From contig JAMYGW020000002.1 of assembly GCA_025617375.2 (NCBI GenBank), positions 3,038,001 through 3,102,000 on the forward strand: a DNA stretch of 64,000 nt, in the 5' to 3' direction. The stretch is from Acarospora socialis. Taxonomy: Eukaryota; Ascomycota; Lecanoromycetes; Acarosporales; Acarosporaceae. How positions within the stretch are numbered: the stretch's first letter is position 1; every line of letters begins with the position of its first letter. A model generated the notes under the pieces. The model was not told the origin of the DNA. It ran no database searches and was given only the letters and a program-made list of their open reading frames with translations. Position numbers and translations under genes: made by a program. Below, piece after piece: positions 9,764 through 33,111 of this stretch.

Positions 9764-12091
9764 TTTCGGAGCGGTTTGGGGTGAGTTGCGGGGCCGGGTG
9801 GGCGATTGGGGTGATGGGTGGTCGAGTGCGTGAGTTGTGAGTAGCTGCGGCAGCTTCGCACAGCTGGGCTTTTGCTCAATTGCTGGGCTCGTGTGTCGAG
9901 AAGTGCTGTTGGAGAGTGGTCGGAACCGAAGTAAGTTACCTTAGGTGTGCATTTCGAGCTAAGTTCGTAAACGGCTACGGCCAATCAGAGGCCACTACAG
10001 CAGGGAGGGAGTAATTGGGTTAGAGCAAATCACCTCAGCTTCATTCAATAAGGTTTTTCGTGATAGAGAACCATCACAGTGTTTCTATTTATCCTAACTT
10101 TATGGGTGGCCACCTCATCCGAGTTGCTCTCAGAAGCCTCATATACTTTGCTGTTTACATATTGTGTGACATTACTGTCGTTACCACACACCTGGAAGCT
10201 ATTGTGCAATAAGACAACCTCCGGCCCTGTCACTACAGCGCCGATCTGGGCTCTTAATTGGCAGATGTCAAGTTGAAGAACGAATGCATGTACTCGAGTA
10301 TACATGCCAATGCTAATTTGGCTGGATACCGCTCAATTTCAGGATCCAACGAATGCCCAGGCATCAACTCCAATATAGTCTACTGGTCGGACCTTCGTGA
10401 TTGGGCTCCCAATGTTTTATCATCTCCTTTACATGTAGGATACAGCTGTCTTGTCCCTCCGCCGCAGTTCTGAGAGGCTTTATCTTCTCACCTAATTCTC
10501 CATAACACCCCTTTTCGTGTGTCGCGTTCAGTATGGACGCTCATACAACTTCGCTCAGACCTGGAGGTATGAGTACACACACTCTCTACTCTCATCTGCT
10601 CCCTTTTTCCCAGGCATACGCGTCCCTGTGTCAAGTCCTGGAACATGTCTTTCCTTTCCACTTCTGGACCGATTTTGCTACCTGGCCAAGTCGAAACCAG
10701 CCTACATTGTTTGGTCGTACCAGCCAGGGCAAGAGGAGGGCTCGCAGCCCTACAAGTTCCCCGATACAGCCAAAAATGTGGCAAAACATACAACAGCGGG
10801 AATTCGCTGGTCGTCACCGACCCAACTACTGATCCGCCGATCTGTGGCTTGTGTATGGCAGAGCGGACGGGATGCCCAGTTCTCCACAGTCTATGGTCGT
10901 ATGTGGGAGGTGGTGTTGAGAAAGTGATTCTTACCGTTTGGTAGTGGAACCACTCTCCCACCGGCTTTCTCCCACCTCTTGACAACACAATGTCTCTGAT
11001 GAAACCTAGTCTATCTTCTCGCTGAAGCATGTATTGTTTTGATGAGGTTGCTCGCATCTGGATTCGACATATAGAATGCCATGGGTGGGAAAGTAGATCC
11101 TGTTGGTTCCAACCTCACAAATCTATCCTGTCTCATCGTAGGCGGCAGTGCATTGAAGTCCAGAGTTGGAGTTTGATACTGGTCGGATGCTAAATTCCTG
11201 AATGCCGGTGGCTGCAGAGCTTCTCGCAGCCCTAATCTTTTCATACACCCAAGACTTCAATGTTAGCCATGGCGTTGTTCCTTTGGTATCATACCATATT
11301 TGAGCTTGTTACTAGGCCTGAAAAAGGTATATACACAGCTTTCGTTACGAGTGGAGGCCGATGGCTCGATTCAAATCTACGAAATGCCTTCATAGATTCC
11401 AGAGACACTCCGTAGGCTTGAGTCACTAAATTTGATATCTAGCCTCGAAAGAAAACATCTTCGTCCTGTTCGTGCTGTGTTCATACTTTACATGTCAGCA
11501 GTGCAGGTGAACCCATACATCCGCCTGTCAGCAGCGTGCCCGAGGCTTCCGATCGGGCTGGTGGGTACGAGTACATATCACTGAAGGCCATATCTACAGC
11601 GGGCTTCCTGGTAGGTCTCTACATTGTAGCCCCACAGACCCCATAGGGCCCATTGAGGGCATACTCACATAGAGAATTTACGGAAGCCGAGGGATAAGGC
11701 AAGGTATTATCGGACCACGGGACAAACATTGATAATATAATATACCGGAGTACCTTAATGAACGCTCGTAATGGATTGGTGACTTCTGGACATCTTACGG
11801 TACAGCCACGCCCTTTTGCAAGTTACCAATGCCGACTGGTACGGTAATTTTCACTAATCTGACAGATGACGCTTGGCACACGTCTCATCAATAAAAGTCC
11901 CTCCGTCTCAACTCTCTTCATCTACCAACAAAACTACCTTTACCACAACACCTTGCACATCCATTGCACGATCCCTTCATAGAGACTTTTTCAGAGCCTA
12001 ATACTATAAGGTACTACTCCTCCTATACGGACCCTTTGAAATTCTTTCTGAGGCCGAAGTTCTTTGCTAACTGCCCCACTAGACATCACCA
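9764..12091. other. Long intergenic region upstream of GAPDH and COX5
   Basis: This 2.3 kb lies between two divergently transcribed genes. Overlapping frames near 10488-11057 (-) and 10517-10944 (+) compete over the same bases and match nothing I can name, so I do not call a gene; decayed coding sequence is possible. The part next to GAPDH has ATAAAAG at about 11891 and pyrimidine-rich tracts at about 11896-11945, typical of strong fungal promoters. Confidence 0.5.
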
Positions 12092-31963: not shown

Positions 31964-32921
31964 GCTCTACGAACCGGAGCTAAAGGTAAGGCCCTGAATT
32001 CTCTCCTCTGAGAACTATTACTTCCACGATAGCAGGCAGCCCTTGGTCTTGTCAAGCCTCGAGGAGCGATTGTGAGGGAGCTCGCTGAGGAGCAGAGGTA
32101 AATTCCCGTGGTGGCTATATACTACGGTAAACGAGTCTAAACGAGGCATTAAGAACAGGTGTGTGGTGGTTGGGGTGAAACGTGGTGAGGCATACGCCGT
32201 TTAGGCTTGACAGGTCTACACATGTGCCTCCTCGATGGACTTCTCTAGCAATATAAAGATCTTCAGCTAGCTCAGACCGAACTCGGAATCAGCATTAGGG
32301 CTGGAGGATACGGCGTTTGAAATCTGTCGTGCAGGTGGAATCTGGTATATATTAAGCATAGAAGGCAGGTATTATGGATGCCCAGGATCAGCAAAGACAA
32401 AGCTTCAAGACATGGTGGCATTGTCAAGTCGGGTGAAGGACTTGAAGTACAAGGCATCAATTCAATTGAAAGGATGGATTGTCAAATTGATTGCCCTCTG
32501 TTCTGGGAAGGGGAAGATGGACCAAATACAGCGAGAGACGCTAAGAAATCGATACAAGGCTTCTATGTTAAGGGCTTCACGTACGTGTCCTTCAAGATCG
32601 TGACACCAAGATGTAACGCCTGAAAACATCTGCGCAATAGACATAGCTCTTCGTAGAACATACCTTTCTCAGGACTGATATGATGGCTGGGATGGCCGCT
32701 AGCTCATTGAGGCAGACTTCTGTCCTTTAAAGGGTAGATACATCTCAGGCGGCCCGCAGTACATCACAAAACGAAGGTGGTGGTGAAATGCGATATCTCT
32801 ATATCATATGAATAGCAGTATCTAATAGATTTAGAATCCTGCTTGAAAACGTAAAGTCCTTTCTTAGAAAATTCTTTATGGTGATATATTATATTATTAT
32901 ACATGCTATTTGAGCAAATAG
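31964..32921. other. Gene-free, AT-rising region before the tRNA
   Basis: No supported gene. Composition becomes AT-rich after about 32800, and the 45 bp before the tRNA contains TATATTATATTATTATA, an upstream AT element of the kind seen before fungal Pol III genes. Confidence 0.4.
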
Positions 32922-32942
32922 GGACGTGTGGCCCAATGGTTA

Positions 32943-32994
32943 GTGCCTCGATTATTTAATTAAAGTAAATCAAAACTAACATCATTACTAGGCA
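32943..32994 (+). other. 52-nt insertion in the tRNA D-loop
   Basis: It lies between GGTTA and AGGCG. Its ends carry an inverted pentamer, TGCCT (32944-32948) and AGGCA (32990-32994), able to pair. Read as a spliceosomal-type intron it would be GT-AG at 32943-32991, with an ACTAAC branch-like motif (32975-32980), leaving three extra D-loop bases (GCA). Confidence 0.65.
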
Positions 32995-33005
32995 AGGCGC
33001 TTGAC

Positions 33006-33057
33006 GTACATCTTCCCCGGGCCCTGGAGTGATAATTATTACTAATATTTGCAACAG
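33006..33057 (+). other. 52-nt insertion in the tRNA anticodon loop
   Basis: It starts GTACAT and ends CAACAG, with TTACTAAT (33039-33046) at a distance from the 3' end normal for a branch site. It sits between tRNA bases 32 and 33. Exact excision restores the loop C-T-A-C-G-A-A. The boundaries look like a short fungal spliceosomal intron rather than a tRNA-endonuclease intron. Confidence 0.65.
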
Positions 33058-33099
33058 TACGAATCAAGAGATTCACGGTTCGATCCCGTGCACGTTCAG

Positions 33100-33111
33100 T
33101 TTTTTTTTTTT
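33100..33111 (+). terminator. Pol III terminator (T12)
   Basis: Twelve consecutive T residues begin two bases after the tRNA discriminator base, as expected for RNA polymerase III termination. This supports the tRNA as a transcribable unit. Confidence 0.8.

Follow-up and report, generated by a model that had tools for sequence, protein, structure and literature searches.

Nuclear rDNA of lichen-forming ascomycetes carries spliceosomal introns (Bhattacharya et al. 2000, cited in PMC8527467), and yeast excised one such intron from a Pol I transcript, according to the accessible text of PMC8527467. An mRNA-type intron also interrupts the U6 gene of fission yeast (Tani and Ohshima 1989, 1991, cited in PMC10484740). 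In tRNA genes, insertions in the D or T arm of one of many synonymous copies have been supposed to mark pseudogenes (accessible text of PMC4090602). Among the matches listed in searches of the open-licence PMC literature, for which subscription papers lay mostly outside the scope and some matches were judged by title, we found no report of spliceosomal introns in tRNA genes.

The locus described here lies in Acarospora socialis, on the forward strand of a 64,000-nt stretch (C2:3038001-3102000; the window, to which positions without a contig name refer) of a 31.1-Mb assembly of 38 contigs. Two protein pieces from the window fit a lichen-forming ascomycete: one of GAPDH shares 96% identity with a record named Toensbergia leucococca (best hit 98%), and one of RuvB-like 2 shares 91-93% with records of Candelaria, Candelina, Xylographa and others, although the highest score in that search went to a record labelled Exaiptasia at 74% identity. 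The comparison of tRNA genes was confined to this one genome and this one assembly. The original prediction read positions 32922 to 33098 as a tRNA-Arg(ACG) gene interrupted twice, and ARAGORN returned a complete tRNA-Arg(ACG) once both inserts were removed. Run without introns, ARAGORN made no tRNA call across the window; its sole fit to the unspliced gene, again an Arg(ACG), required an intron of 105 nt and left the anticodon stem weaker, and RF00005 was absent among the five Rfam matches to the gene up to E 10. The internal Pol III elements and terminator that had been predicted are all present on the + strand: an A box (TGGCCCAATGG, 32929-32939) whose final G also begins intron 1, a B box (GTTCGATCC, 33078-33086), and a run of 12 T residues (33100-33111) that is likely the Pol III terminator. 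Upstream on the same strand, an A+T-rich, TATA-like stretch recognized by eye (32884-32902) is a possible promoter element. At gathering scores, the only Rfam match in the window was a 5S rRNA gene (10785-10904, - strand; RF00001, 71.1 bits), which is full length and carries no insert.

The second insert falls where it was predicted, at 33006-33057, the single deletion that attains its fold score and the sole structural solution. It is a 52-nt GT-AG intron (GTACAT...CAACAG, + strand) in the anticodon loop between bases 32 and 33, and its branch-point motif CTAAT (33042-33046) places the branch A at 33045, 12 nt from the intron end. Folding does not uniquely place the first insert, predicted at 32943-32994: 33 deletions score as well or better, two of which are GT-AG. 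We read this insert as a 53-nt GT-AG intron (32939-32991, + strand; GTTAGT...TACTAG) in the D loop between G18 and G19, with donor GTTAGT, acceptor TAG and branch-point motif CTAAC (32976-32980; A at 32979, again 12 nt from the intron end). The D arm then reads CCCAATG joined to GCAAGGCG. GT starts and branch motifs had been claimed for both inserts, and both have them, but insert 1 as first drawn ends in CA. The three exons, also on the + strand, comprise 17 nt (32922-32938; bases 1-18, by ARAGORN on the spliced sequence), 14 nt (32992-33005; G19 to C32), and 41 nt (33058-33098; U33, the ACG anticodon, the T arm, the acceptor, and base 73). The product is accordingly 72 nt under the GT-AG reading rather than 73, and the inserts measure 53 and 52 nt rather than 52 nt each. 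Even near-equality of length is no special sign, since lengths of 50 to 57 nt are shared by 11 of the 12 introns in the class described below.

A DNA search of the genome with the 72-nt product of the GT-AG reading as query recovered the gene's own exons and two degenerate uninterrupted copies, with no intact gene found. At the junction, copy L060 (C13:727436-727495; 87% identity) reads ATGGCAAGGCG, identical to the GT-AG product letter for letter, and copy L061 (C2:3613792-3613860; 81% identity) reads ATGACAAGGTG, which has the length of that product with two changes. The GGTTAAGGCG required by the boundary first drawn is absent from both. These junctions therefore support the GT-AG boundary of insert 1 and contradict 32943-32994. 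ARAGORN found no tRNA at either locus. By eye, the D stem and acceptor of L060 are broken and its T loop is changed, and in L061 the T loop has 6 nt and G18 is altered. The anticodon stem of L061 is still paired through changes on both sides, and this copy may be functional, now or formerly. L060 and L061 have a common T stem, unlike that of the window gene. On this evidence, no Arg-ACG gene other than the interrupted one was found intact.

Candidate tRNA loci across the genome were collected with B-box patterns, which are blind to possible introns within the T arm, and with the Rfam tRNA model, which scored 63 of 1275 candidates; 58 regions were fetched and read by hand on both strands. The resulting catalogue holds at least 40 nuclear tRNA genes. 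It omits AT-rich organelle-like hits, the bacterial-looking contig C35, and ambiguous candidates such as L076, L078, L079, and L088. Nuclear genes for Asn, Asp, Cys, and Phe tRNAs, and some for Thr and Pro, were not found by this B-box- and Rfam-based route, and since these are missing, the B-box candidates came from the matches listed, and only 63 of the 1275 candidates were scored, the true total is at least 40. At C35:1600-2600 (L090), a tRNA-Ser is followed by CCA in DNA of 63% GC, and contig C35 probably represents contamination by bacterial DNA. Tandem units of about 200 bp at C2:3139300-3140500 (L065) contain tRNA-like A and B boxes, and a paired acceptor stem was looked for in them and not found. 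Two viral contigs that matched the Arg anticodon-arm pattern (10 and 6 uninterrupted tRNA genes in the fetched stretches) were dismissed as chance identity.

Twelve GT-AG introns outside position 37/38 occur at nine places in 10 of the 40 catalogued genes. Four genes have introns of this class alone: the Arg-ACG gene in the window (two), Ser-AGA L052 and L069, and Trp-CCA L063 (one each). The remaining six hold both intron kinds. Pro-TGG L046, Lys-CTT L084, Lys-CTT L053 (in which the D stem is imperfect), and elongator Met L067 combine one GT-AG intron with a 37/38 intron; Leu-AAG L071 (C6:1047200-1048200) has three introns, two GT-AG and one at 37/38; and its paralogue L074 combines a 37/38 intron with a GT-AG intron of 86 nt at a D-loop site shared with L071. 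By hand numbering, the 12 introns lie at 15/16, 16/17 (two), 18/19, 24/25 (two), 28/29, 29/30, 30/31 (two), 32/33, and 46/47; those of L063, L067, L084, and L071 include anticodon-stem introns. Ordinary 37/38 introns of up to 40 nt are present in 27 of the 40 genes (26 listed introns plus that of L023, read by eye), making this an intron-rich set. Eleven genes have an insert outside 37/38, and the GT-AG class accounts for 10 of them. The exception, L041 (C2:2067700-2068700, + strand), is tRNA-like, with acceptor, D, and T arms that pair only when a 79-nt insert near 32/33 is removed; that insert is not GT-AG and contains a strong hairpin.

With all introns removed, ARAGORN assigned the expected isotype to all eight non-Leu genes. 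Both Lys genes (L084 and L053) gave Lys(CTT) in this form and a wrong anticodon when the 37/38 intron was kept, because ARAGORN misplaced it. For L071 and L074, ARAGORN gave Leu(AAG) with the 37/38 intron kept (introns of 17 and 21 nt) and assigned no amino acid when that intron was removed one base short.

The deletion of a GT...AG segment restores the fold for each of the 12 inserts in the 10 genes. For each intron, with the others removed, we counted all deletions of at least 30 nt whose fold score equals or exceeds that of the GT-AG deletion, using our own scoring, a chance of 1/256 per deletion, and leaving L041 aside. The equally good deletions numbered 1, 1, 1, 2, 2, 5, 5, 10, 12, 12, 15, and 33, with the five inserts in D and V loops accounting for the values from 10 to 33. 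The product of chances over the 12 introns is about 1e-21, or about 1e-20 without one of the Leu-AAG D-loop introns, which occupy one site in paralogues and are perhaps not independent. Both Leu-AAG D-loop introns allow two GT-AG readings, 2 nt apart. In a looser scan in which the 37/38 intron was variable, the GT-AG solutions used had ranks of 0 to 308; it missed the second intron of L071, which had been found by eye.

All 12 introns have GT...AG ends, although the initial reading by eye already looked for such ends and the scoring was added later. Against the consensus GTRNGN, R is present at +3 in 10 of 12 donors and G at +5 in eight; two of the introns end in AAG. A CTRAY motif with its A 8 to 15 nt before the AG occurs in 11 of 12, the sole exception being the D-loop intron of L071, which has CTTAC. 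Shuffled intron bodies gave CTRAY in a mean of 0.6 and a maximum of five introns in 20000 shuffles. Among 26 ordinary 37/38 introns used as controls (L023 omitted; 10-40 nt), none had GT...AG and none had CTRAY, and sliding both ends by 3 produced GT...AG in none of the 24 tested. Because of their shorter length, these introns are a weak control for the branch motif, for which the shuffles are better.

In the window, three introns of protein-coding genes start with GTATGT, GTCAGT, and GTCAGT, and each finishes in TAG. Their lengths (49, 77, and 95 nt, just three measured) compare with 50 to 57 nt for 11 of the 12 tRNA introns and 86 nt for the other. Two of them contain CTAAC and CTGAC at 20 and 18 nt from the end, versus 9 to 14 nt from branch to AG in the tRNA introns; the 49-nt intron has no CTRAY. 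A common mobile origin of the tRNA introns was considered and found no support, the best intron-intron alignment scoring 14 against shuffle maxima with a mean of 11.65 and a top of 15. Taken with the 37/38 controls, the genome-wide class supports the original proposal of spliceosome-type introns in nuclear tRNA of a lichen-type ascomycete, and the sequence evidence is strong that such introns are a real, genome-wide feature here.

Many shrunken group I introns are described in lichen rDNA (accessible text of PMC8527467), and the inserts might by analogy be self-splicing or decayed group I or II introns. We consider this extremely unlikely. In a scan that covered the window and, of the 10 interrupted genes, the Arg gene, no group I or II intron appeared at Rfam gathering scores, and none was included in the five matches that the gene gave up to E 10. 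Nine of the 12 inserts also fall below 56 nt, which the accessible text of PMC3160393 gives as the bottom of the size range for degenerate small group I introns, and the GT-AG ends and CTRAY motifs fit the spliceosome.

A relaxed, structure-guided tRNA splicing endonuclease (SEN), as proposed for Cyanidioschyzon and nucleomorph tRNAs, could instead remove the inserts. The genome has two matches to the catalytic-subunit family PF01974, 27 of the 40 catalogued genes contain a 37/38 intron, and ectopic tRNA introns elsewhere have been ascribed to it (accessible text of PMC4090602). Strict bulge-helix-bulge pairing, however, is missing at all 12 junctions; only the second L071 intron comes near, pairing 2 of 4 central positions and 3 of 3 on each outer side. 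SEN action would also leave unexplained the GT-AG ends (12 of 12), the CTRAY motifs (11 of 12), and the 50- to 57-nt lengths, features that set these introns apart from the shorter 37/38 introns, which lack GT-AG and CTRAY. Removal by SEN is on these grounds very improbable.

The interrupted genes could also be dead copies that have received introns or other DNA, with intact genes elsewhere supplying the tRNAs. Degenerate tRNA copies and tRNA-like repeats do exist in this genome, and several needed isotypes were missed by our searches. Yet a B box and a T run (at least 4 T, starting within 8 nt) are retained in all 10 interrupted genes, the A box in the unspliced DNA has no mismatch in six and one mismatch in four, and the stems are kept, except that the D stem is imperfect in L053. 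No intron is a copy of another. For Arg-ACG, it is the uninterrupted copies that ARAGORN rejects and the interrupted gene, once spliced, that it accepts. Copy searches by DNA covered four of the 10 genes: Arg-ACG, Trp, elongator Met, and Ser-AGA L069. The spliced Trp query matched only its own exons (bases 2-27 and 28-72) and the elongator Met query only its own (1-32 and 39-74), with no other genomic match for either; the L069 query matched its own exon only (14-81). An uninterrupted tRNA-Met(CAT), L007, was read as the initiator. Trp and elongator Met have no substitute isoacceptor, and no uninterrupted gene was found for either. Both interrupted genes would therefore have to be processed, barring a copy that was unassembled or missed, a qualification that applies to every only-copy statement here because all rest on DNA searches in one assembly. 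The pseudogene alternative allowed for in the original prediction is thus disfavored, and we judge it very unlikely that the interrupted genes are dead.

We conclude that 32922-33098 is, with high probability, a functional nuclear gene for tRNA-Arg(ACG) that contains two U2-type spliceosomal introns and belongs to a set of at least 10 genes of this kind. The anatomy suggests that the internal A and B boxes would direct transcription by Pol III, which would stop at the T run. The spliceosome would then recognize GU, the CURAY branch site, and AG in the Pol III precursor; both introns would leave as lariats, and the exons of 17, 14, and 41 nt would be joined and only then be able to fold as a tRNA. 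In genes that hold both intron kinds, the major spliceosome would presumably act before SEN, because anticodon-stem and D-arm introns break the fold that SEN measures; end trimming and SEN removal of 37/38 introns would follow. As to origin, our guess is that released introns were reverse-spliced into abundant structured RNAs, as proposed for U6. In this fungus, tRNA maturation is likely to require the major spliceosome: one in four catalogued genes, including the only Trp and elongator Met genes found, would need it, some tRNAs, such as tRNA-Leu(AAG), would pass through spliceosome and endonuclease in fixed order, and all translation would hang on the spliceosome.

If this is true, translation here relies on splicing machinery that is not known to act on tRNA. 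Splicing of these genes would mean that the spliceosome handles Pol III precursors with exons of 14 to 17 nt, that one RNA can be served by two unrelated splicing machines, and that tRNA supply is tied to spliceosome capacity. Such splicing would bear on a published hypothesis that lichen rRNA introns slow growth and aid desiccation tolerance (accessible text of PMC8527467). tRNAs would, moreover, give a clean record of spliceosomal intron gain, because their sequence is under constraint and the site of an insertion can be located almost to the nucleotide. Needed genes of this kind can escape tRNA finders.

Among described systems, the canonical 37/38 introns, removed by endonuclease and ligase, share genes with the GT-AG class (6 of the 10 hold both kinds) and differ from it in position, length, ends, and branch motif. 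The ectopic introns of archaea, Cyanidioschyzon merolae, and algal nucleomorphs resemble it in occupying D and anticodon arms and in occurring more than once per tRNA; they are ascribed to structure-guided cutting by the endonuclease (accessible text of PMC4090602), whereas the introns here have mRNA-type signals and no strict bulge-helix-bulge. The fission yeast U6 intron is, like these, a spliceosomal intron within a Pol III transcript, but it concerns one snRNA of the spliceosome itself rather than many tRNAs (PMC10484740, as far as its accessible text goes). The A. socialis U6 gene (L056; C5:1983300-1984300, - strand), identified by eye, appears intronless, and a B-box-like element lies shortly 3′ of it. 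The introns of lichen rDNA are likewise short (57 bp in a Cladonia example) and interrupt, in a fungus of the same type, a structured RNA that is not made by Pol II, but there the host is Pol I rRNA (accessible text of PMC8527467), whereas here the hosts are tRNA genes with Pol III boxes and exons down to 14-17 nt.
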